Below are positions 1 through 11,791 of a stretch of 15,001 bases of DNA, in pieces. The translations under genes were made by a program, and so were the position numbers. Location: contig JAFNWZ010000452.1 in assembly GCA_017379255.1 (NCBI GenBank), positions 1 to 15,001 of the forward strand, in the 5' to 3' direction. Below the pieces are notes generated by a model. The model saw only the letters and a list, made by a program, of their open reading frames with translations. It made no database searches and was not told the origin of the DNA. The stretch's first letter is position 1. Each line of letters starts with the position of its first letter. This stretch comes from Akkermansia sp. (GTDB lineage: Bacteria > Verrucomicrobiota > Verrucomicrobiia > Verrucomicrobiales > Akkermansiaceae).

Positions 1-75
1 GAGCGCGAGAGAGTAGCAGAGGCAGAAGAGAATTTAGCAACATTGAAACAACAAATTAAGGAGCATACATTATGA
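1..75 (+). CDS. 3' end of an upstream gene, function unknown (partial)
   Basis: Frame 1 is open from the first base and ends at TGA 73-75, giving 24 visible residues (it begins ERERVAEAEENLATL). The piece is charged, rich in Glu and Ala, and heptad-like, so a C-terminal coiled coil is plausible. Its stop overlaps the start of the scaffold gene by an ATGA (72-75), which indicates translational coupling within one operon. The position just before scaffold and capsid would suit a portal or small structural gene in many phages. The portal is elsewhere in this window, however, and too little is visible to assign a function. Confidence 0.55.
   Translation, partial: ERERVAEAEENLATLKQQIKEHTL
58..63 (+). 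promoter_or_regulatory. Ribosome binding site of the scaffold gene
   Basis: AAGGAG lies 8 bases before the ATG at 72. It is one of the few clear Shine-Dalgarno sequences in the window. It supports starting the scaffold gene at 72, upstream of the in-frame TAG at 168, rather than at the GTG at 171 after it. Confidence 0.7.
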
Positions 76-731
76 GTGACGAATCAATAGAGTCCCCCCA
101 AGTACCCGAGGTAATGACAGAGACGGAGTCGAATCCATTTGCATTTACCGAGAGCGATATCGAGCAATAGGTGGAAGAAACCGAGAAGACGACGGGAGAA
201 GAAAACACCAACGGTGGCGAGTATGAATTCAACCTGGGCGAGGATAGCAGCATACCGCAACATCTGCACGGAGGCCTGGCAGAACGAGCCCAGCAGCTGG
301 GGCTGGACGGCAGCAAGGCAGCCGAATACCTGAATGCCGCCATGAGCTATGCCCAGGAGATGGAAGCACAGGCAGCAAGGGAAAGCGGAGCAGCCTTGCG
401 CCAGGAATGGGGAAGCGAGTTCGATGCCAAGGTGAATGCCACCAAGCAATTCATGGTGCGTATGAGCCAGAAAGCAGGACTGAGCGCTGAGCAGATGAGC
501 GTGCTGATGAGCCCGAACGGATTCCGCTTGATGAACGCGATACGCCAGGCGAGCGGAGGAGAGAATGTGCGCTACGCAGGCAATCCGCAGAGCGCACCGA
601 AGATGACACCGGAGCAAGAGCTAGAAGAGATTTACTCTGACCCGGTGAAATACCACGCCCTCATCACCCCGGGAGATCCCCAACACAAGATAGTCAACCG
701 AAGAGTCAATGAACTCCTAGGGATATAGTAA
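72..731 (+). CDS. Capsid scaffolding-like protein, two in-frame TAG codons
   Basis: With TAG read as an amino acid this is a 219-residue protein from ATG 72 to TAA 729-731. In-frame TAGs are codon 33 (168-170) and codon 219 (726-728), the latter directly before the TAA. The N-terminal third is acidic and probably disordered. The middle is helical and rich in Ala, Glu and Gln (for example EYLNAAMSYAQEMEAQAARE), followed by a GLSAEQMSVLMSPNGF segment. The C-terminus is short and basic (KIVNRRVNELLGI). This layout, size and position directly before the major capsid gene are typical of podovirus scaffolding proteins, which guide procapsid assembly and then leave. Under the standard code the product would be a 32-residue peptide, or a GTG-started protein beginning right after the TAG with no Shine-Dalgarno sequence. 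The start at 72 has a good ribosome binding site and an ATGA overlap. The scaffold role is inferred from composition and context; I see no sequence-diagnostic motif. Confidence 0.75.
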
Positions 732-757
732 GCCCGGTCACTTTACGGGATATTTAG

Positions 758-786
758 TTAAAAGTGTAATATGTTAATATGTAATC
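758..786 (+). promoter_or_regulatory. AT-rich doubled-octamer element upstream of the capsid gene
   Basis: The 55-base gap before the capsid gene contains TAATATGT twice in perfect tandem (767-774 and 775-782), then AATC and the ATG at 787. A near copy sits upstream of the tail-tube A gene (11203-11220). There is no Shine-Dalgarno sequence here. The element could be a phage late promoter with a very short or absent leader, a regulator-binding site, or a translation element. An additional weak pairing, CACTTT (739-744) with AAAGTG (761-766), lies just upstream. The function is inferred from recurrence and position only. Confidence 0.5.
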
Positions 787-1839
787 ATGGGTAATGATAT
801 ATTGAAGAGCAATATAGATGGATAGTACGGAGTTAAGTACACGAAAGTCTTGCAGCGCATGTTGCAGCAGGACTCCTCGCTAGTCACCCCCTACTTCACC
901 GTTATGAACGGTTGTGCAGGCAAGTCGGTAGAGATACCGTACAACGGCATGGCCGCGATGAAAGAACGCACGCAACGTGCAGAACCAATAACCAACCGCA
1001 GCGAGCTCCAATTCGGCAATCGCCACATGCGACCACGACACTTTCTCAACGTGTCGCAGTTCTCACATGACGACAAGATGTTCAACACGAACATTGATTT
1101 CTCTGTGAGCAACATCATCACCGAAGTACGCGCCGCCATCAACCGAACCCGAGATGAGGTGCTCATGGGTGTGGTCTATGACCCGGTAGATAAGTGCTAC
1201 CGCAAGCTCACCGTGGCGGAAGCCAGCAAGAACCTATACACCGGCATCGGAGGAGGACTACTTGCGACCAACTACACCGGGTTGGACGGCACAGGTCTTG
1301 AAGACTTAGGAGATGAGGATACCGGCAATGATTTGACCACAAACGTTGTGCCGTTCGATTTCAAGTACAGCGGCACCAAGACAGCCACGGGAGCAGTGCT
1401 CGACAAGATTGTACGCGGTATCGAGCTATTGAAGAAGCGCCAGGCATACAAAAAAGGCGTGAATACCTGTGTGCTAGCGCTAACGGCACGCCAGCTCGCG
1501 GAAATTCAGATGTGGGAGCAGGCGCAGAACAAGAACTATGGGTTCGGCGACCTAGTGAACGGCTACCAGAACCGCATTTTGGGCATCAATATCCTAGAGA
1601 CAGAGATGCTCCCCTTTGCGAAAGTAGGACCGAACCAGGTAGAAGCCAGAATCTGCCCGATGTGGGTCAAGGAGGATGCCATCTATGGTGTGTGGGACGA
1701 TGTCAAGGTACGCATCGACAGCAATTTGTAGGACTTTGTAGATTTGGGGCAAGTAGTGACCACATGTTCACTAGGTGCTAGCCGCAAGTACAAAGAGGCA
1801 GTAATACAGTTGCAGTGTGTTGAAAACATTGCATCGTAA
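787..1839 (+). CDS. Major capsid protein (DUF4043 / N4-gp56-like), two in-frame TAG codons
   Basis: Reading TAG as sense gives a 350-residue protein from ATG 787 to TAA 1837-1839. The TAGs are codon 13 (823-825) and codon 315 (1729-1731). Recognisable features are the N-terminal segment with KVLQRMLQQ, the early NGCAGKSVEIPYNGM strand, the TNRSELQFGNRHMRPRHF stretch, and the C-terminal WVKEDAIYGVWDDVKVRIDS. These resemble HK97-fold capsid proteins of the N4-gp56/DUF4043 group. Residues 315-350, present only if the second TAG is read through, contain TCSLGASRKYKEAVIQLQCV. This resembles the strand region that usually closes such capsid proteins, so the extension looks native rather than random. 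Size and position after the scaffold gene fit the family. Under the standard code only a fragment starting at TTG 850 and ending at 1731 would be called, lacking both termini. The family assignment comes from recall and has not been tested by a search. Confidence 0.85.
1754..1773 (+). other. Weak hairpin just downstream of the second capsid TAG
   Basis: TAGTGA (1754-1759) can pair with TCACTA (1768-1773) around an 8-base loop, about 25 bases after TAG 1729-1731 and inside the capsid coding frame. The pairing is short. It is listed because a downstream structure could affect readthrough, but chance is an equally good explanation. Confidence 0.2.
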
Positions 1840-1878
1840 GGAATGAACAAAGACGGGCGGGTGGGCAGGAAATAAAGG

Positions 1879-3984
1879 ATGCTGAACTTTTTAGGAATTT
1901 CGGAGAATCTATCGGTACTGGCAGACAGCAGATGGGTCAGTACCTTTCTGTTTACCGATGAGGTAACCGGAGCGACCGCGAACCTGGACGGAGTGACCTT
2001 TGAGGGTACGGTGAGCGTGGACGGACAGGAGGAATACGCCATCAGCTTCACCCGCAGCAGCGGAGACAGCCAGGCACATATCGTCGAAGTGGAACTTCCT
2101 CCGCTCCCGGAGGGACGCTGGAAATACTCCATCTTTGTGACCCACGAGACGGGAGAGAAATCCCGACTGATGTATGGGTATGTGACCGCCGTTGGGGCGT
2201 TCATCGACATGAGCGGCCACAGCTATGCGAACCGCACGCTGGAAGTGAAGCTACCAGGCGATGCGGCGAGACGTGTCCAGCTGGAGTGGCAGGCAAGCAC
2301 CGTAGCCCAGCAGGCAGCCAAGAATGCACTAGATGCCGCGGAACGAGTAGCGGACTTGCAGGAGACGGCAGAGGATGCCGTGACCAAGGCTACCGAAGCC
2401 CTGGGCAAACTGGACAAGGTAGAGGAACTGGTGGAAAATGCAGAGACAGCCGCAGGCGAAGCCCAGGAAGCCGCGAACCAGGCACAGGAAATCGTGGATT
2501 CCGCGCCGAGAGAATACATCCCGACCATCGTTGGTGGGTACTGGTATATCAACGGGCAGAATACCGGCGTGAAAGCCGAGGGTGAAGACGGCCTGGATGG
2601 TAGTCGAGTTGTGCGCCATCTGATACACAGCGTGGATGAGCTACCGAGCAGCGGAGCCACCTGCAACCCCGGGCACATCTATTATCTGGGGCTGCCAGAT
2701 ACTCTGCACACCCTGGATGATGCGCCAGACAACAGCGGAGAATGGAACGCCTGGAGCGTCTCCGCAGATTTAGTGCCCCACGGGGTGACGCTGAGCGGGC
2801 TGGTCGTACCGAGCGTCGGCAACAGTTGCAGTACGCCACAGTACATCGGGGTGTATCTGCAAGAGAACAACGTGAGACGCGGCTTGCTGACCAAGAGCAC
2901 CGCCAGCAAGACCTGGACAAAAGGGCAAGACGTGCGCTGGGACTTTGCCATTCCCTTTGAAGTGCCTGACGGTGCGGGGATAGAAGTATACCTGGCAGCC
3001 AACGAGGAAGACATCGGCGAGGCCAGCGTACCTGGTCCAGGAATACACATCATGAGCCCGTACCTGAATGAGGGCATCAGTTCATGCCGCTACGGAGCCA
3101 TGTGGTACGGGGGACGCAGCCCGTATCTTGGATTCACCAGTCCGAACGCAGGCCAGGTCATCGTGTATGAATGGTTCGATGGGCACGGCTGGGTAAGTCT
3201 GGCAGGGAATGCCGCCCAGATGATACGCCCGGCGAGTGCGAGTGTGGACGGTGTAGTGAAACTGGGCAGCGACCAGGTTCTGGAAGACGGGGCACCCGTA
3301 TGCACGAATGCCGAGGGACAGATGCAAGTGCCCAGGGCAACCGCAGCACGAGCAGGCGCGGTACTTCTGAGCCGGAGCACGCCCATCACCACAGGAGCGC
3401 CGATAGGCTATGACAGCAGCGGACGCCTGGTAGCCGATGCGGCAGAACTGGACGGACGCAGAGCCACCCTGACACAGTTCGGCGTTGTTAAGCTGGGCTC
3501 CGAATGGAAAGAGGGACTGGAGATACCCTATCTCGTGGGCATAGGCTCCACCGAAGACGGGCGACTGAGCAACAACCTACTGCACCGAGGCGCATTGAAA
3601 CATATGCAGCATGCAGGGTGGACGGAAACCGGCATGACCTGGACAAGCAACAGCTCATTCCTGGACGAGAGCAGCTATTACCTGGGACTGCACACCAGCC
3701 CCAGTTTCCGCCAGAGCGAAGCGAGTGGCCTGGAACTACTGCATGCCACGAGCAGCAGAATCGGCGGTGTTACCCTGACATCGAATGCTTACGATGAGAA
3801 CAGCGCCCGTGTACTGGACGCATCGGCACTGCGCCGCAACTATGCCCCACGCCCGGAACTGGCAGACATGCTTGCCGCTTACATCAAGACCAACACCACG
3901 CTGCTGAGCATCAAGGTGCTGACCCAGGAGGATTACGACAAGCTGACCACCATCGAAGCCCACACCCTTTACCTGGTATACTGA
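1879..3984 (+). CDS. Tail fibre / receptor-binding protein
   Basis: This is a 701-residue modular protein starting at ATG 1879, with AGGA at 1868-1871 as a ribosome site. Residues 1-130 form a beta-rich N-terminal domain, probably the virion-attachment part. Residues about 141-209 are an Ala/Glu-rich coiled coil, a usual trimerisation stalk. It is followed by a YIPTIVGGYWYINGQNTG module at about 212 and a region of beta-structured segments. The C-terminal part repeats a fibre-like motif, GVVKLGS, near residues 459 and 539, with a diverged GVTLTS near 630. Such repeats resemble the short repeats of phage tail-fibre shafts. The extreme C-terminus, IKVLTQEDYDKL followed by HTLYLVY, is a common ending of tail appendage proteins. 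It probably adsorbs the phage to host surface glycan or protein. Placement directly after the capsid gene is unusual. No TAG codon occurs within it. Confidence 0.78.
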   Translation: MLNFLGISENLSVLADSRWVSTFLFTDEVTGATANLDGVTFEGTVSVDGQEEYAISFTRSSGDSQAHIVEVELPPLPEGRWKYSIFVTHETGEKSRLMYGYVTAVGAFIDMSGHSYANRTLEVKLPGDAARRVQLEWQASTVAQQAAKNALDAAERVADLQETAEDAVTKATEALGKLDKVEELVENAETAAGEAQEAANQAQEIVDSAPREYIPTIVGGYWYINGQNTGVKAEGEDGLDGSRVVRHLIHSVDELPSSGATCNPGHIYYLGLPDTLHTLDDAPDNSGEWNAWSVSADLVPHGVTLSGLVVPSVGNSCSTPQYIGVYLQENNVRRGLLTKSTASKTWTKGQDVRWDFAIPFEVPDGAGIEVYLAANEEDIGEASVPGPGIHIMSPYLNEGISSCRYGAMWYGGRSPYLGFTSPNAGQVIVYEWFDGHGWVSLAGNAAQMIRPASASVDGVVKLGSDQVLEDGAPVCTNAEGQMQVPRATAARAGAVLLSRSTPITTGAPIGYDSSGRLVADAAELDGRRATLTQFGVVKLGSEWKEGLEIPYLVGIGSTEDGRLSNNLLHRGALKHMQHAGWTETGMTWTSNSSFLDESSYYLGLHTSPSFRQSEASGLELLHATSSRIGGVTLTSNAYDENSARVLDASALRRNYAPRPELADMLAAYIKTNTTLLSIKVLTQEDYDKLTTIEAHTLYLVY

Positions 3985-3985
3985 T

Positions 3986-4801
3986 ATGAAGATACGACTT
4001 GGAAGCATGACCGGCAGCCCCGGCGAAAGTGGGGGCGTAGACGGCTCAGGAGTGTATTTCAGCTTAGACAGCGGTCGAGACGGGCTGCAAGGCCTGAACG
4101 CCATCTACTACGGCGTGAAAGACGGCAAGGCGGTAAAGATATGGCCTGGAGAGGGTATGTACCGCATCACCGCGCTGGTGCTGAACCTGGCAGACAACCT
4201 ATCGAGCCTGCTGCACCAGTATGCGGTATCGACCAACGATTTCAAGGTGGGGAACGGCAGTCTGAAAGTAAGCATCAACGGGCGAACCTGGACACGCAAT
4301 CAGAAACGAAGCGACATCCGATGGGACAGCAACGCCAACACCCTTTACTTCGAGAACAACAGCGGGCCCTTTGCGGATTTCCTGAAACGCGGCGACTACC
4401 TGAACATCGAAGTCCGCATGGAAGCCTGGGGAAAGACCCTGGTACTGACTGAGGACTCCACCAGTGAATTCGTGAAAGTGAGCGATTTTAATCCCGTGAC
4501 CACCTGCGATATCTACATCGGCGCAGACTGGAAAGGAGACATCGCCAACGCTGCCGCCATTTGCAAGCAGGACGGCACCATTGCTGCCAAGGCCGAGGCA
4601 CAGATGGCCAGCAGTAAGAAGAAGAAGAAAGGCGGGAGCAAGAAATACGGCCAGGAGCAGACCGTGCAAGGCATTAGTTATCCCGGCTACATCGTGCTGC
4701 GGGGCGTGGCAGATTCGAAGGTGTTGCAATCACGCATCAGCTACCCAGCAGCGAGTCAGAGTATCACCGCCCGAGTAATGGAAATACATGTGAAAGAATG
4801 A
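3986..4801 (+). CDS. Uncharacterised virion or fibre-associated protein
   Basis: This is a 271-residue protein whose ATG follows the fibre stop by one base, so it is almost certainly cotranslated with the fibre. The N-terminus is Gly/Ser-rich (GSMTGSPGESGGVDGSG) and runs into an LNAIYYGVKDGKAVKIWPG segment that resembles short modules seen in appendage proteins. The middle is beta-rich with many aromatic and Asn residues (SDIRWDSNANTLYFENNSG). Residues about 211-220 form a lysine-rich linker, SSKKKKKGGSKK, encoded by AAG repeats and dividing the protein into two parts. A hydrophobic, Ser/Tyr-rich C-terminal portion follows. I see no catalytic motif. The neighbourhood suggests a fibre accessory, chaperone or capsid decoration role, but I do not recognise the family. 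It ends with TGA four bases before the next start. Confidence 0.6.
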   Translation: MKIRLGSMTGSPGESGGVDGSGVYFSLDSGRDGLQGLNAIYYGVKDGKAVKIWPGEGMYRITALVLNLADNLSSLLHQYAVSTNDFKVGNGSLKVSINGRTWTRNQKRSDIRWDSNANTLYFENNSGPFADFLKRGDYLNIEVRMEAWGKTLVLTEDSTSEFVKVSDFNPVTTCDIYIGADWKGDIANAAAICKQDGTIAAKAEAQMASSKKKKKGGSKKYGQEQTVQGISYPGYIVLRGVADSKVLQSRISYPAASQSITARVMEIHVKE

Positions 4802-4804
4802 GAT

Positions 4805-5023
4805 ATGTGCAAGACAGCAAAAGACTATCTGGGGGTGGTAAGAGAATACACCCGTGAAGTAATCACCTTTGGAGGATTCGGCCTGGCAGTACTCGTGTAC
4901 AGCGATTTTAAGGCTATGGTGACCGACCTGGCTGCCAGTAACGCGCGTACCGCAGAGATACTGCGAGACATTGATGTGAGGCTAAGCAACTTAGAACGAC
5001 GACAAGGAAAGGAGAAGAAGTGA
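4805..5023 (+). CDS. Small holin-like / membrane-anchored coiled-coil protein
   Basis: This is a 72-residue protein with a short hydrophobic stretch near residues 20-33 (ITFGGFGLAVLVYS), preceded by charged residues. An amphipathic helix follows (ASNARTAEILRDIDVRLSN) and a basic tail (ERRQGKEKK). A single weak membrane segment plus a coiled coil and a basic C-terminus fits small lysis proteins of the holin or XhlA type. It could equally be a small membrane-associated structural protein. The hydrophobic segment is short for a transmembrane helix. The gene starts three bases after the previous stop and lies directly upstream of the recoded small gene. No endolysin is visible nearby, so a lysis role is only a suggestion. 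Confidence 0.5.
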   Translation: MCKTAKDYLGVVREYTREVITFGGFGLAVLVYSDFKAMVTDLAASNARTAEILRDIDVRLSNLERRQGKEKK

Positions 5024-5024
5024 T

Positions 5025-5369
5025 ATGGGAAGTTCGGCAGGATGGAAATCCGTATTGGGAGGCGTAGCAAACATCGCCACGATGGGGTACTACGGGTAGT
5101 ATACGTCATCGAAGAAAATTGCCAAGGCACAGCAGCAGGCAGCAGCCGCGTATGCAGCGAGCAATGAAAAGGTTGCAGCAGCCATTGAAAGCAGCAGCCA
5201 GGCAACGCCGACGGCAGTACAGGCAACGACAAACGCCCCACAGCAAGCCGCAGAGGCTAACGTGTACTCCGCGCAGAAGCGCAAGCGCACCATAGCCAGC
5301 ACCGCCAACAAGACTTATGCCCGGACGAACAATGTTCTGGGCAGCATGGGAGGACGCAGCACACTATGA
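5025..5369 (+). CDS. Small pre-portal protein with in-frame TAG (hidden under the standard code)
   Basis: ATG 5025 opens a frame that runs to TGA 5367-5369, interrupted only by TAG at 5097-5099 (codon 25). Read through, it gives 114 residues. AAAGGAG at 5008-5014 is a good ribosome site, and its stop overlaps the portal start by ATGA. The protein begins with a small hydrophobic, Gly-rich segment (GWKSVLGGVANIATMGYYG). An Ala/Gln helix (KKIAKAQQQAAAAYAASNEK) follows, and the C-terminus is basic (AQKRKRTIAST and ending GSMGGRSTL). A basic C-terminus ending in a Gly-Arg-x-x-Leu type motif is typical of small proteins encoded beside portals in gut podoviruses; their role is not known to me. Under the standard code the product would be a 24-residue peptide. 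The continuous coding potential after the TAG and the exact overlap with the portal gene are strong evidence that this is real. Confidence 0.75.
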
Positions 5370-7027
5370 ATGAAGAGAACAATGCAGAAATCAGGCGAGT
5401 GTGTGAAACGCTGTTTGACACCTATACCCAGGTGGCAGCGAACGATGTGGACGAATTGCAGCGACTCATTGACCCGCGAGGGTACACCAAAGGGAAGCTG
5501 CACCAAGAGAACGTGCGATACCGTCATTGTCCACAGGCGAAAGCCGCGCTCGATGTGTTGGTATCGGCGCACAGCACCTACATCAGCCCGAGCGGGCAAA
5601 AGTGGTTCAGTCTGAAAAGCAGGCTCAACCAGCTGACCCCGTACGGCAAGAAGAACAAGATAAGCGACTGGTACAACAAGTGCACCGAAATCACCAACAA
5701 CGAGCTGAGCGACAGCAATTTCTACACCACCCTGCAAGAAGTCTACACCGACCGATGCCTGGGAGGGACAGGGGCATGCTACATAGGCGGCGATGAAACG
5801 AAGCCGCTGCACTTTGTGCACGTGCCGCTGGGCAGTTTTGCCATAGCCGAGGATGCGCACGGCACCGTGAACATGCTGGTGCGAAAATTCCGCTATACAC
5901 CCCACCAGGCAGCGAGTCAATGGGGCCTGGAGAACCTGCCCGAGCATGTGAAAGATGCCTATCTGGACTTACACCGCCGGTACACCGAGAAGATAGAATT
6001 CGTGCACCTGGTGAGACCCAAGGAGAACGGCATCAAAGGAGCGCAGGATATCCCGGAAGAGATGCGTGAATATGAAGGAATCTACGCCGACACCAGGAAC
6101 TACCATGTGATTCAGCGTGAGGGGTACTTCGAGTTCCCCTACCTGGTGACACGATTCCTGAAAGGCAACGACAGCGCGTATGGTGTAGCCCCGGGGCTGG
6201 GAGTCATCCCCATCATCCGCCAGCTGATGAAGCTGGAGCGCCTGCTTGATACCCAGGCAGAAGTGGCAACATTCCCACGCGTGCTGCAACTGGCAGGCCA
6301 GAATCGGCAGGTTGACATGCGAGCGGGAGGTATCACCACCATTACCCCAGATGAAGCCAGCCTGGGATATCCGCGAGAATGGGGCACCCAGGGCAGATAC
6401 GACATCGGGCTGGACAGAATCAAGGCCAAGGAGGAAATCATCAACCAGGCCTATTACGTCAACATGCTCAACGCCATCAGCAGCGTGGACAGACAGATGA
6501 CCGCGACAGAAATCAACGCCCGAGAATCAGAAAAGGTGCTGGCATTCAGTCCATCGTTCACGCTGTTCATCGCTGACTTCCGACCAGCCATGCGGCGCAT
6601 TATCTCCATCCTGTACCGTAAGGGATTACTGCCCAAGGAGGGTATGCCCGACGAGCTGTTCCGGGTGGACAGCAACGGGAACATCTGTGTGATGAACCCG
6701 AATGTGAGCTACCTGGGGAAGATAGCCCAGGCCATAGAACGAGTGCAGCGACGCGGCATTGACCAGGCATTGGAAACCATCATCGGGTACACGCAGGCCA
6801 CAGGAGACGGGAGCATGCTGCAAGCCCTGCAACCGCGACAGATAGCGAGATACGTGGTGGAGGCATCGGGTGCGCCCTATGACATCCTGCGAACGGACGT
6901 GGAGCTGGAAGCCATGGATGCCCAGGCAGCCCAGATGCAGATGGCACAGCTGGAGGCAGAGCAGCAGCAGATGCAGATGGCAGCAGCAGATAAAGGAGCA
7001 AGCGCGATACAGAAACTGAGCAAATGA
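5366..7027 (+). CDS. Portal (head-tail connector) protein, T7 gp8-like
   Basis: This 553-residue protein is of normal size for the head-to-tail connecting family (Pfam head-tail connector, T7 gp8 group). It forms the dodecameric ring at the capsid vertex through which DNA passes, and docks the terminase and tail. Typical stretches are SAHSTYISPSGQKWFSL near residues 67-83, a TTLQEVYTDRCLGGTGACYI block near 121-140, and AYGVAPGLGVIPIIRQLMKL near 271-290. Also seen is an SVDRQMTATEINAR stretch near 370, matching the helix-rich clip/stem region. The C-terminal 40 residues are Gln/Met/Ala-rich and probably form a barrel-like coiled coil. The start overlaps the upstream gene by ATGA, and the end overlaps the tail-tube B gene by ATGA. 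No in-frame TAG is present. GGAGGA at 5349-5354 may be its ribosome site, with a somewhat long spacer. Confidence 0.88.
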   Translation: MNEENNAEIRRVCETLFDTYTQVAANDVDELQRLIDPRGYTKGKLHQENVRYRHCPQAKAALDVLVSAHSTYISPSGQKWFSLKSRLNQLTPYGKKNKISDWYNKCTEITNNELSDSNFYTTLQEVYTDRCLGGTGACYIGGDETKPLHFVHVPLGSFAIAEDAHGTVNMLVRKFRYTPHQAASQWGLENLPEHVKDAYLDLHRRYTEKIEFVHLVRPKENGIKGAQDIPEEMREYEGIYADTRNYHVIQREGYFEFPYLVTRFLKGNDSAYGVAPGLGVIPIIRQLMKLERLLDTQAEVATFPRVLQLAGQNRQVDMRAGGITTITPDEASLGYPREWGTQGRYDIGLDRIKAKEEIINQAYYVNMLNAISSVDRQMTATEINARESEKVLAFSPSFTLFIADFRPAMRRIISILYRKGLLPKEGMPDELFRVDSNGNICVMNPNVSYLGKIAQAIERVQRRGIDQALETIIGYTQATGDGSMLQALQPRQIARYVVEASGAPYDILRTDVELEAMDAQAAQMQMAQLEAEQQQMQMAAADKGASAIQKLSK

Positions 7028-9555
7028 TACGCAATTCATTCAATGGAGGAGTGCTGAGCCCGAGTATCAGCATGCGCGAAGACCTGGACGTATTCCGCCG
7101 AGGGTGCAGCGTGCTAGAAAACTTTGACGTGGGACAGGCCGGGGGCATCCGCAGGAGAAGAGGATTCCGACGAGTGGCAGAGGCTCAGAACCAGCACAGC
7201 CGATTGTTTGCTTACAAGTACCGCAACGACGTACGCTACCTGGTGGAAATCGGGACGGAGTACATCCGCGTGTACCGAGCCAACGGCGAACTGGCCTGGG
7301 AAACAGAGAGCCCCTATATGGCCGAAGTGCTGCCGACCGTACGCACCTTGCAAGTGAATGCCCTGCTGCTGGTGATGAGTAGGTATCTGCCACCGATGCA
7401 GTTACGGTGTGACGGAGACGGAACCTGGAGCTGGGAACTGTTCGAGTACAGCGTACCGCCATGGAGATACAGCGAATATCGGGAGCTGCCCGTGACCGTG
7501 AGTCGCCGAAGTGACGGCTATTACAGCGTTGCATTTGATGATGAGGAAGATGAGGAAGAGGCCCAGGCCGAAGCACGCGAGGTGCTGCGAGCGAGTTACT
7601 ACACAGACGCCCAGCAGATACAGATGGCACAGGCCAGCATCCATGCGAAAGTGACCGCCCGCTACGAGGCAGGATTCATCACCGCCGACACCAACATCAG
7701 CAAGGGAACGGTGTTTGCCGTGCGGCAGAAACCGGAGTATTCCGTGTATTCGGTGGTCGAAGAGTTTACCGGGGAGACCATGTTCGTGCAAGGCCTCATC
7801 GACCCGGCGAACTACACCGGCAACTTCCAGCTGGCCAGCGATGCCACCACGCATGATTTCAGTATATCCGAACTGACCAAGAGCAGCAGCTACACCAAGG
7901 GACAGCGGGTGCGGTTCGAGGCCGGGTACTGGGATATCTATACCTGCATCAGCGACTTCAAGGGGACGTCCGATTACTACAGGGAGGGCATAGAACCGAG
8001 TGACTACCCCGGGCATTTTGTGCGCGGTGTGATGCTGGGTGCAGCCCCGTGCAAGGGCGCGTGGCATCTGTACGTGAGCGGTACGTGGGCGGGCAGTTAC
8101 GAGGTGCGCGCCAGTTACACCGGGAAAAGTCAATACGATGACTGGGAGTACCGAGGCGAGAGCTTTTCACGCATCATTGCCCCGAGCAATAACCTGCTGG
8201 CAGGCGATGAAAGCAGCGAGGAATGCTATGTGAGCCTGTGGCTGACCCGGGCGCGAGCCTATGGGAACAGCTGGACAGCCCGCAATATGCCAGCCGACAG
8301 TTGCGGCAATGTGCTCAGCGTGAGCTCCTACAAGCATGACCTTATCTTGCAGCATCAAGTAGTTGCAGATGAAAGCAGTGGTGAGGTAGTGGACTCATAT
8401 TACATCCTGCGCGACCCCATCAAGACGACCTGGTACGGCAACATCACCACCCAGGACTGGAGCTGGTGTGCGTTCAGCAGCAAGTACGGATTCCCCAGGC
8501 TGGCGTGCATCTTCAACCAGCGGCTTGTGTTTGCCGGAACGGAATCGCAGCCGCAGACCATCTGGCTGAGCAGGACGGACGATATCGACAACTTCGATAT
8601 GGTGCAGCAGGATGACGGAGCCATGGCCTTAACCATGAGCAGTCAGACCCAAGACCCCATCCGCTGGATGATGTGCGTGAACAACCGAATCATGCTGGGC
8701 ACGGCAGAGGGCGAGAGCATCATCCAGAGCGGCAACGGAAGCAGCACCATGACCTACGCGAACGCGACCATCGTCACGCATGGATTCGTAGGCTCCGCAG
8801 ACGTGGATGCCATTGCCTGCAACGACAAGACCGTGTACTTTGAGCGTGGCGGAGCCCGAGCCATGCAGTTCGGGTACAGCTATGAGCAGGATGCCTACCT
8901 GAGCACCGACCTGAGCATCTTCGCAGAGCATATACTCAGAGATGGGGGTGGAGTAGTGGGGGGAACTTTCCTACGCAAGCCAGATGCAAAGGCAGTACTG
9001 GTACTGAGGGACGGCAGCATTGCCTGTATGACCTATAATAGCCAGCACCAAGTGAACGCCTGGCATCACTACTCCACCCCTGGCACGTTCCATGAGGTGT
9101 GTATGCTGCCCAACGGCAACCAGGCCGACAGCCTGTATGCAGTGGTCGGACGAGATGAAGTGCGCGAAATAAGCGGCGGTCTGTCAGATCCAGAAGACAC
9201 CGAGCGCGTGTACAGTATCGAATGCCTGGATGAAAGCAGCGATTTCTGCGATGCGGGCGATAGGGATTACGAATCCGTGATGATGACCAATGCCCTGACC
9301 ACGACCAGTGTACGCGGCAGCAAGCAGAGCACCGGCCCGGTGATGATGTACCTGAACGGCAGCACCAAATCGGCAGGCGTGGAAGTCAGCAGCGATGGCG
9401 GCAAGACCTGGAGCAGACCCGACAAGAGCGCCAGGGGCATGTTCTCCGCCGGGTGGAATAAGCTGGTGGGATATGGCAATAACCAGTACGACCAGATTGT
9501 AGGGGTTCGCGTCAGGGGTAACCAGGACTTTCAAATGTTAGCGATACAGGCATGA
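7024..9555 (+). CDS. Tail tubular protein B-like tail nozzle protein (T7 gp12 type)
   Basis: This is an 843-residue protein. The first 50 residues carry the signature of the podovirus tail tube B/stabilisation group: FNGGVLSPSISMREDLDVF, then ENFDVGQAGGIRRRRGFRR. This is the pattern F..G.LSP.(L)..R.DL......G...L.N..V...GG..RR.G. The rest is beta-rich with many Trp and Tyr residues, as expected for the beta-propeller-like nozzle. A short acidic run (DDEEDEEEAQAEAREVL) lies near residue 172-188. Near residue 500 there is a CIFNQRLVFAGT segment, and TIWLSRTDDIDNF follows, both matching the propeller blades of this group. It would form the distal tail tube on the adaptor. It overlaps the portal and the terminase by ATGA at either end. 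No TAG codon occurs in its 843 codons. Confidence 0.85.
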   Translation: MIRNSFNGGVLSPSISMREDLDVFRRGCSVLENFDVGQAGGIRRRRGFRRVAEAQNQHSRLFAYKYRNDVRYLVEIGTEYIRVYRANGELAWETESPYMAEVLPTVRTLQVNALLLVMSRYLPPMQLRCDGDGTWSWELFEYSVPPWRYSEYRELPVTVSRRSDGYYSVAFDDEEDEEEAQAEAREVLRASYYTDAQQIQMAQASIHAKVTARYEAGFITADTNISKGTVFAVRQKPEYSVYSVVEEFTGETMFVQGLIDPANYTGNFQLASDATTHDFSISELTKSSSYTKGQRVRFEAGYWDIYTCISDFKGTSDYYREGIEPSDYPGHFVRGVMLGAAPCKGAWHLYVSGTWAGSYEVRASYTGKSQYDDWEYRGESFSRIIAPSNNLLAGDESSEECYVSLWLTRARAYGNSWTARNMPADSCGNVLSVSSYKHDLILQHQVVADESSGEVVDSYYILRDPIKTTWYGNITTQDWSWCAFSSKYGFPRLACIFNQRLVFAGTESQPQTIWLSRTDDIDNFDMVQQDDGAMALTMSSQTQDPIRWMMCVNNRIMLGTAEGESIIQSGNGSSTMTYANATIVTHGFVGSADVDAIACNDKTVYFERGGARAMQFGYSYEQDAYLSTDLSIFAEHILRDGGGVVGGTFLRKPDAKAVLVLRDGSIACMTYNSQHQVNAWHHYSTPGTFHEVCMLPNGNQADSLYAVVGRDEVREISGGLSDPEDTERVYSIECLDESSDFCDAGDRDYESVMMTNALTTTSVRGSKQSTGPVMMYLNGSTKSAGVEVSSDGGKTWSRPDKSARGMFSAGWNKLVGYGNNQYDQIVGVRVRGNQDFQMLAIQA

Positions 9556-11180
9556 ACGACAAGGAGTAGATAAAGAAGCTGGTGGCTGACCCGTACTGGA
9601 GGTTGAATAACCTGTACTGGGTGCAGAACAAAGAGGGCAAAGTGGTGCGATTCCGCTTCAACTTTGCCCAGGAGGAACTGTACCACAGCATGCACAACCG
9701 CAACGAGGTGCTGAAAGCCCGCCAGCTGGGCATCAGTACCTTTGTGGCCTTGCTGATGCTGGACAGATGCCTATTCACGCATCACTTCAACGCCGGTATT
9801 GTGGACAAGAGCGTGGACGAAGCCAAGAAGAAACTGGGGAAGGCCCTGTTTGCCTACGATTGCCTGGACTATGTGCCCCCGGAAGCAAGTGACCGCGACC
9901 GCGCCCTGGCAGCCATTGGTGGAGAAATCAAACGGCAAGCGGTACTCAGCAAGAGGTCGGTGACATCGGTTGAGTGGAAGAACGGGAGCGTCATCAACGT
10001 GGGAGCCACCATGCGTGGCGGCACCTTACAGATGCTGCATGTGAGCGAGCTTGCGTATGTGGCGAACCACAACCCGGTACGCGCAAAGGAAATCCGCACC
10101 GGTGCCCTGCAAGCCGTGTCCAAGGAATGCTGCGTATTCAAAGAGAGTACACACGAGGGTGGACGTGCGGGTATCAACTATGAGATGGTCGTGCAGGCCA
10201 TGAACAACAGCGGGCACAAGCTGAGCCCCCTGGACTATAAGTTCTTTTTCTTCGCGTGGCATCAGAACCCCGAGTATGAACTTGATGCCGACTACTGGGA
10301 CGTGCTGCCTGATGAGCCCAGCCCAGGGTGGCTGAAAGAACGCCAGGAACAGGAGGAGTATTTCTCCGGACTGGAAGCTCAGGGAATTGTGCTGAACAGC
10401 AGGAAGAAAGCCTGGTACGCCACGCAGAGGCGCACCCTGGGATATGCGGTCAGACAGGAGTTTCCGAGCAACCCGGAAGAAGCATTTGAAACCATGGCCG
10501 AGCATGCCATCTATGCCCACCAGATAACGAGGTTGAAGCTGGATGGACGCTTGAACGTAGAGTATGAAGCCGACGCCATGCTGCCGACCTTTACATCCTG
10601 GGACATCGGCATGGGGGATTCCACATCCATCTTCCTATGGCAGGCAGGCGCAGATGGCATCTGGCGCGTACTGGACCACTACGCCGCAAGCGATATGCCG
10701 CTGAGCCACTACGTCGGCATCGTGCGAGCCTGGGAGGGTAAGTACGGCGTGAGCATTGCGCGGCACTTTCTGCCCCATGATGCGCAGAAGCGCGACTGGG
10801 AGGGATGCAGCTTTGCGGAACGGCTGCGCCGCACCGGTCTATGTGTGAGCGTGGTGCCGAGAACGCCTGACATCTGGGCGGGCATCCAAGCGACACGCCA
10901 GCTGCTGCCCCATTGTCTGTTCCATGCCCGGGTGGGAGACCCGATACAATGCCAAGGCAAAGAATACCCAAGCGGCTTGCAAGCCCTGGAGAACTACCAG
11001 ACCGCACCCGATGGGAACAACGGTGTGCAGAAAGCCGCACCGCTGCATGACCGATACAGTCACTCGGCGGATGCGTTCCGAATGTTTGCCGAAGCCGTGG
11101 CCGCGAACATAGTGCCCCTGCATGGGAACAATACATCCCAAGCGCCGATTCGAGCCATTGGTGCTGAATGGATGTCATGA
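9552..11180 (+). CDS. terL: Terminase large subunit with in-frame TAG at codon 6
   Basis: With TAG 9567-9569 read as sense, the gene starts at ATG 9552 (ATGA overlap with the tail-tube gene) and gives 542 residues. It is the ATP-driven DNA packaging motor and headful nuclease. The N-terminal segment DPYWRLNNLYWV is typical of podovirus large terminases. The ATPase domain carries LKARQLGIST (about residues 54-63, Walker A-like) and LHVSELAYV (about 162-170, Walker B with E166). The nuclease domain has acidic residues in SWDIGMGDSTS (D351), FLPHDAQ (D410) and HDRYSHSADAFR (D507), matching the three-Asp RNase-H-like centre. Starting at GTG 9582 instead would drop ten residues and leave the gene without a start overlap or ribosome site. 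The stop is TGA. No small terminase subunit is recognisable in the window. Confidence 0.9.
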
Positions 11181-11195
11181 TGTGGGACGTATCGG

Positions 11196-11224
11196 GAAAG
11201 GTTAATATGTGCTAAGATGTAAGC
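11196..11224 (+). promoter_or_regulatory. Second copy of the doubled-octamer element, before the tail-tube A gene
   Basis: TAATATGT (11203-11210), GC, TAAGATGT (11213-11220), then AAGC and ATG 11225. This matches the capsid-gene element (767-786) almost base for base apart from a two-base spacer and one substitution. Both copies end exactly four bases before ATGG. There is no Shine-Dalgarno sequence. It is probably a shared promoter or translation control site for virion genes. Confidence 0.5.
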
Positions 11225-11791
11225 ATGGACAAGAGCACTGTGTGTAATATGGCGTTGCGCTTGCTGGGAGAGCATGAATATGTCGCTGATACCCCAGGGT
11301 ATGAGACGACCGAGCTATTCTTTGCGTAGTGCTATCGGGAGTTGCTGGCAGCACATGACTGGAGCTTTGCCAGGAGGAGAAAAGAATTGCAGGCTAACGA
11401 ACGGGGAGAGTATGAACTACCGCCGGACTGCCTGCGCATCATTGAGCTGCGAGGATTACGGAACTGGAGGAAGTACGGGCGCATGATACGCCCAGAGAGC
11501 CTGGACAACAGCCAGGGGATAGAACTCATCTACACCAGCAGTTCCCTTGCGAACCGAGGTGAAGTGCCCGAGGAAGTGCCGGAATTTGTACGCGCCCTGG
11601 TAACGCAGCTTGCCGCATGTGCGGCGATCCCCATCTGCAATGACGCCCAGAGAGCCCAGGGATTGATGCGAGAAGCCAGGGAACAATGCTACCAAGCCAT
11701 GACGCATGATACGCAGCAGGACAACAGCAATGACCAGCACCCGCTGGATAGGATATTGAACCACAGCATCACAAACGAATATGGGGGTTGA
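11225..11791 (+). CDS. Tail tubular protein A-like head-tail adaptor with in-frame TAG at codon 35
   Basis: Reading TAG 11327-11329 as sense gives 188 residues from ATG 11225 to TGA 11789-11791. The diagnostic block is CYRELLAAHDWSFARRRKEL near residues 36-55, which matches the conserved core of the T7 gp11/P22 gp4 adaptor group (pattern R.E.L..HPW.FA.RR). The TAG immediately precedes this block, inside FFA-TAG-CYRELL, so translation from the ATG needs readthrough. Family members as I recall them often have Gln at this position (FYEQCRDEVL), which supports glutamine. The protein would form the ring between portal and tail nozzle. The remaining C-terminal part is helical. The only starts downstream of the TAG are TTG-type, beginning at 11342 inside the conserved block. 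It overlaps the next gene by 11 bases. Confidence 0.85.

Follow-up and report, generated by a model that had tools for sequence, protein, structure and literature searches.

Late region of a podovirus-like phage in an Akkermansia genome

We analyzed a 15,001-bp stretch of DNA (the window), which is an entire contig (C450) of a metagenome-assembled genome of Akkermansia sp.; the source bin comprises 2.5 Mb in 457 contigs, with a completeness of 90 and a contamination of 4. The window is the late region of a podovirus-like phage and encodes g1, the capsid, the fiber-like g3, g4 to g6, the portal, tail tube B, the large terminase (TerL), tail tube A, and further genes. TAG codons at positions 168, 726, 823, 1729, 5097, 9567, and 11327 all lie in frame, in five of these genes, and we lean towards the explanation that the phage has recently begun to read TAG as glutamine (Gln).

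The genes described here all lie on the plus strand. The scaffold-position gene g1 (72..731), which is read through the TAG at 168 to the TAA at 729, matched phrog_3742 (E 2e-9), and its homologues (50-89% identical) share its start and end. The major capsid protein gene (787..1839) contains two TAGs and matched PF19821 with 82.8 bits (cut-off 25), with 15 homologues. The small gene g6 (5025..5369) precedes the portal and has homologues in the loci L057, L119, and L120. TerL (9552..11180) matched phrog_2 (E 4e-22), among others, with 50 related loci, and tail tube A (11225..11791) matched phrog_394 (E 1e-22). The genes of the portal (5366..7027; PF12236, 274.8 bits) and tail tube B (7024..9555; phrog_376, E 9e-95) contain no TAG.

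In-frame TAG codons and the residues at their columns

An earlier sequence-only reading of the window had reported seven in-frame TAGs, all of which were confirmed. Neither an in-frame TAA or TGA nor a frameshift was found in the 15 frames (4947 codons). That reading had assigned the TAGs to five virion genes; the number of genes is right, but TerL is a packaging gene, and thus four at most could be virion genes. Homology on both sides of the TAG was clear at four sites in three genes and probable at two more, and one site was uninformative.

Both capsid sites gave strong evidence. At codon 13 (823..825), which has homology on both sides, 10 of the 15 homologues have Gln (Phe in 2, Asn in 2, and Arg in 1), and at codon 315 of 350 (1729..1731), where invariant residues lie downstream, Gln was found in 11 of 15 and Glu in 4. 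In tube A, codon 35 (11327..11329) is also flanked by homology and is occupied by Gln in 20 of the 28 homologues having a residue there (Leu in 4, Pro in 2, His in 1, and Val in 1), in line with the Gln-favoring context that had been noted for this gene; the alignment used 29 of the 36 matches, with P0045-P0051 (33-38% identical) omitted and P0019 having no residue at the column. The Gln counts at these three columns were unchanged when the TAGs were aligned as X. The nearest capsid homologue, P0001 (95% identical), has Gln at both TAG positions, each of which could in principle be a translated TAG as the gene caller and code of the database proteins are not known. Gln likewise stands at the TAG column in those long tube A proteins that are nearest to the window's (three, 84-87% identical). 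The fourth strong site is codon 25 of g6 (5097..5099), with homology on both sides and an N-terminus upstream of the TAG that the g6 of L119 has in common with the window; the column itself is a gap in relatives.

The evidence was moderate for g1 codon 33 (168..170) and TerL codon 6 (9567..9569). The g1 homologues share the start and the neighboring residues, but the column, which lies in a variable linker, is Pro in most of the 6; a GTG (171) directly follows the TAG. In TerL, the residue was aligned in 19 of the 50 loci, faced a gap in 1, and lay beyond the end of the match in 30; the column is variable in relatives, and a GTG at 9582 is a possible start. Codon 219 of g1 (726..728), the last residue, adjoins the TAA at 729. 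The homologues stop one residue past Ile-218 (Pro in 4 of 6), indicating that TAA 729 is the ancestral stop and that TAG 726 is uninformative; TAG 726 could itself serve as a terminator.

Judged by homology, Gln is the best reading of TAG, and the homologue columns are strong evidence for recoding. The assignment of TAG to Gln made by the sequence-only reading thus stands as the best explanation, backed by three columns though not by the two g1 columns; not all seven sites trace back to a Gln codon, g1 columns 33 and 219 being Pro in most of the six homologues. The stop at the tube A codon probably persists in a strain variant too: this variant, P0019, is 98% identical (two residues differ), comprises 134 residues, and is recorded only from a start after the TAG. 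The P0019 cluster includes a contig of up to 27.8 kb.

Frequency and position of TAG

TAG accounts for 7 of the 263 Gln-type codons in the window (2.7%), beside 256 CAA/CAG. Five of the seven TAGs fall within the first 35 codons of a gene, and the other two within the last 36. The 35-codon limit was chosen after the sites had been seen, which makes the P values that rest on it post hoc. When seven of the window's 190 CAG codons were drawn at random, at least five fell in the first 35 codons with a P of 0.0001 and all seven at gene ends with a P of 0.00002; the four strong sites alone gave 0.004 and 0.003.

For comparison, we examined five 50-kb stretches of the megaphage Lak-A1 (MK250016), with open reading frames (ORFs) called by our own ATG rule on a record that carries no annotation. 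TAG occurred inside 85 of the 191 ORFs, with 538 TAGs beside 1600 CAA/CAG (538/2138, 25%). A slight excess at gene starts was observed there too (the first 35 codons held 65 of the 538 TAGs versus 142 of 1600 Gln codons), and 94 of the 538 TAGs lay at either gene end. The window differed from Lak-A1 both in the first 35 codons (Fisher P of 5e-4) and at either end (6e-6). Because TAG is rare and end-biased compared with Lak-A1, the window phage is not a case of settled code 15. TAG is not a regular part of Gln codon use either in the window or in C55, another phage contig of the bin described below, and only a sparse or incipient form fits. The suggestion of a recent or limited recoding agrees with the low TAG frequency, the 95%-identical capsid with Gln at both sites, and the lack of TAG in C55. 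The 2.7% share of TAG and its gene-end bias, both unlike Lak-A1, are new here.

Terminators and chance

The 14 genes that end in the window use TGA 9 times, TAA 5 times, and TAG not at all. The sequence-only reading had counted 9 TGA and 6 TAA; the absence of TAG stops is correct, but a sixth TAA requires the leading fragment to be read in frame 3 (to TAA 57). Frame 1, which looks more protein-like, runs to TGA 73 in an ATGA overlap with g1 and would give totals of 10 TGA and 5 TAA. Unlike the homologue columns, the missing TAG terminators are weak evidence for recoding, because TAG stops are rare in relatives and host: they end 8 of 87 related phage genes (9 of 87 after correction, the tube A stop of L080 being TAG where TAA had been counted) and 14 of 189 host ORFs. 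The relatives' count leaves aside 2 of 89 gene ends that ran off the contig and includes the near-duplicates L002 and L003. The probability of 0 in 14 is 0.26 from the relatives (~0.22 corrected) and 0.34 from the host ORFs, and at P ~0.2-0.34 this argument of the earlier reading carries little weight.

The window contains 190 CAG, 66 CAA, 77 CGA, and 73 TGG codons of the types that can precede TAG. Random nonsense mutation over the window codons would yield TAG in all seven cases with a P of 0.005-0.009, or 0.02 with C-to-T changes only. A codon-bias scan for coding-flanked stops was dropped as evidence on the phage; the window TAGs were unflagged, and most lie too near gene ends for the windows of the scan.

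Host code and candidate suppressors

The bin encodes an intact release factor 1 (RF1; G000:C162, residues 10-359 of 361, 463.7 bits, over the cut-off), indicating a standard host code, and also has one RF2-like gene. We therefore rejected recoding of the host via loss of RF1 or TAG in host genes, with 14 of 189 host ORFs ending at TAG. The 33 ABC-domain matches in the bin contained no internal TAG and one TGA. Among coding-flanked stops in 277 kb of host contigs, TAG made up 4 of 54 (0.3 threshold), which is no enrichment. Folding of the seven sites showed no common read-through hairpin after the TAGs (z of -1.77 to 0.54). Two secretins have the Amuc_1098 family as their best match, though under its cut-off (647 of 750 bits for the full-length one), in keeping with a host in Verrucomicrobiota, perhaps Akkermansia.

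A 71-nt tRNA with anticodon TCA was observed in L255 (G000:C428, 4985-5055, minus strand), upstream of exopolysaccharide-operon-like genes. It is 92% identical to the bin's tRNA-Gly(TCC) and differs from it in the anticodon, D loop, and T stem; the five other loci compared with it had TCC or were L255 itself. It is a drifting tRNA-Gly copy or an opal-reading tRNA-Gly, and as an altered tRNA-Gly copy it was rejected as a relevant suppressor.

Relatives and other phage contigs of the bin

The nearest syntenic relative in the genus is L057 (G043:C67), with gene-by-gene identities of 29-53%. Its contig also encodes a RecT-like protein, an exonuclease, a replication initiator, and an integrase near a tRNA-Ser gene, indicating that the lineage has temperate members; the window phage, of a podovirus-like kind, is probably temperate as well. 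TerL relatives were found in 55 of the 97 genomes searched. The early region of the window phage was not among the recovered contigs.

C55 (6.8 kb) is closest to the window in codon usage among 34 sequences (0.051; next 0.082) and has among its ORFs a homologue of the L057 giant gene (40% across 1377 aligned positions). On the basis of codon usage and gene content it is likely a continuation of the window phage; no sequence overlap between the two was found. The giant late gene has 3407 codons in the relative (G043:C67:56152-66375) and at least 2155 in C55 (L284, 348-6814, open at the contig end).

The contigs C403 and C242 are alike in codon usage (0.055) and appear to belong to a second phage of the bin, which in C403 is 43-57% identical to the window phage. 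One in-frame TAG was found in C403 (L119; G000:C403), with its codon at 6690 on the minus strand, in the g3 homologue and with homology on both sides, while C242 (L285) has none in 3594 codons of long ORFs. We did not accept the single TAG of C403 as proof of a second recoded phage, as C242, its likely continuation, has none. C192 is a prophage end in the bin: L286 (G000:C192, 6642-8626) contains an integrase that shares 83% identity with the relative's, beside a tRNA-Ser(TGA) and adjoining the end of a giant-gene homologue. A tie to the window phage could not be made, and a search of the bin for the exonuclease of the relative found none.

IMG/VR searches gave no near relative with the capsid, with P0054, with profile A1 (best 30%), or with TerL (best 45%), and the best match with profile A2 was 48%. 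Among GenBank phages, there were zero matches by megablast and with P0001, and TerL and tube B gave distant matches only (all <60%). A search of genome contigs with TerL returned a single 34% relative, in Thermomonas. No Rfam family was found in the window or C403 up to E = 1. Among the genus TerL matches listed, the sole one with an internal stop was G039:C4:44349-45911, with one TGA. The TerL relatives on three IMG/VR contigs (L007, 1480-2544; L009, 2140-3120; L010, 1661-2641) are distant (32-35%), and each contains 18-20 in-frame TGAs, 9 to 12 of which align with Gly. Only if TGA is taken as sense do long ORFs span 76-82% of these contigs, which look like TGA-to-Gly (table 25 type) phages.

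Interpretation of the in-frame TAG codons

Recent, sparse recoding of the code-15 type, with TAG read as Gln in the late genes, is the explanation that we find rather probable. A podovirus-like, probably temperate phage would infect a standard-code bacterium, and TAG would be translated as Gln in its late genes. The suppressor, most likely a phage-borne tRNA with a CUA anticodon on the unrecovered part of the genome, would compete with host RF1 during late-gene synthesis. The change would be recent and incomplete, with few codons turned to TAG, near gene starts and ends where failed read-through may cost least.

Several results weigh against this explanation. TAG is rare beside CAA/CAG, and it crowds at gene ends, a bias that plain synonymous use does not predict. 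C55 has 0 TAG in 2155 codons with 108 Gln codons (P ~0.05 at the window rate), and no in-frame TAG was found in TerL and tube B of the genus relatives among the matches listed. The rule that yields Gln at three columns would favor Pro at the two g1 columns, and for the four strong sites alone the all-TAG P is 0.05-0.07. The CUA tRNA expected by the sequence-only reading was missing from the searchable contigs: there is none among the bin's 38 tRNAs, to which an E-value limit of 10 added none, and none in the window, C403, C55, C242, and C192, which do not cover the phage early region. Its absence does not decide the matter, because a Sup-CTA tRNA occurs in only 375 of 715 phages predicted as table 15, as given in the data cited from PMC11210395.

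The lack of a suppressor in the searched contigs would also be expected of a decaying prophage, in which ordinary nonsense mutations have left several late genes dead and the all-TAG set is luck, made easier by an abundance of CAG. The genus often carries prophages of this family (TerL in 55 of 97 genomes), CAG with 190 codons is the commonest precursor, and a lone in-frame TAG occurs in a second phage contig of the bin. However, the 15 genes are free of TAA, TGA, and frameshifts, the all-TAG P is 0.005-0.02, the stop seems kept in the strain variant P0019, and decay leaves the end bias unexplained; we regard it as unlikely, though a serious contender. The TAG in the second phage contig would equally suit suppression from the host side, by a host suppressor tRNA or leaky UAG reading with no phage recoding system, and PMC7918605 makes the case that read-through of in-frame stops is widespread among bacteria. 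This is hard to reconcile with the intact RF1, the lack of a CUA tRNA among the bin tRNAs, the ABC-domain matches without TAG, the unenriched TAG among host coding-flanked stops, and the absence of a common hairpin; the capsid would moreover require two read-through events. We consider it improbable.

Ordinary termination is more doubtful still. True starts would then lie downstream of the early TAGs, the late TAGs would trim little, and no read-through would occur. Starts are indeed available after the TAGs (GTG 171, TTG 850, GTG 9582, and TTG 11342), five TAGs come within 35 codons of the gene start, and the one at 726 sits next to the ancestral stop. However, TAG 1729 would cut the last 36 capsid residues, including invariant positions, conserved N-terminal residues would be lost from the capsid (G15, K17, and T19) and tube A (A10, G15, and Y19), and the g6 of L119 shares the start upstream of the TAG. 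There is very little to recommend this account as a whole. The early position of five TAGs could instead mean that they act as gates, with a suppressible TAG at codons 6-35 of five late genes (capsid, TerL, tube A, g1, and g6); translation of each would break off after few codons, at little cost, until a suppressor tRNA is produced late in infection. Borges et al. 2022 are said to be the source of the proposal of late-gene control. We hold such gates to be unlikely in the present case. The end bias fits either a young recoding, in which TAGs survive where failed read-through is cheapest, or early gates on late genes. Control of late genes through recoding has already been proposed, in passages of PMC9523058 and PMC10879173.

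Comparison with known recoded phages and significance

Reading of TAG as Gln is itself a known phenomenon, of which the window perhaps holds a sparse, early form. Code-15 gut phages (crAss-like groups and phAss-1), in the sections of PMC7886860, PMC9523058, and PMC10607447 that concern them, resemble the window in that TAG lies in frame within late genes, most of them structural, that conserved columns hold Gln, and that the host uses the standard code. However, their TAGs are numerous (41 ORFs in phAss-1) and a Sup-CTA tRNA is often present, as opposed to the window's seven TAGs, which are spread over five genes, and to the search for a tRNA here, which found none. The window phage also differs from them in being podovirus-like, with a temperate relative, and in occurring in another bacterial group. 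Lak-A1 likewise has TAG within ORFs, but as 25% of Gln-type codons versus 7 beside 256. An incipient case is OFRY01000050, a crAss-like phage of the beta group that gained a TAG suppressor tRNA and, unlike its closest relatives, began accumulating TAGs in conserved genes such as TerL (PMC7886860). Its suppressor tRNA was seen, whereas none was found here, and the portion of that report describing it makes no mention of the gene-end bias shown by the window TAGs.

In the open-access literature, of which long result lists were covered in part, we found TAG recoding described for no phage of Akkermansia or Verrucomicrobiota. Two candidate papers proved to deal with a UGA-recoded verrucomicrobial endosymbiont and, as a general review, with the wider subject. 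With standard gene calling, the capsid, tube A, and g6 genes would come out broken or truncated, as perhaps would TerL and g1. The window may offer a view of stop-codon recoding while it is still young, in a phage lineage, and probably also in a phylum of hosts, from which we found no report of it. Early cases can reveal whether the process opens with the suppressor, with the first tolerated positions, or with a timing switch. If the end bias recurs in other sparse-TAG phages, it would favor a translational gate or selection under incomplete suppression. If the TAGs are gates, a temperate phage would block translation of its capsid and packaging genes by changing hardly any codons, and such a minimal amber switch would be a design distinct from wholesale code 15.

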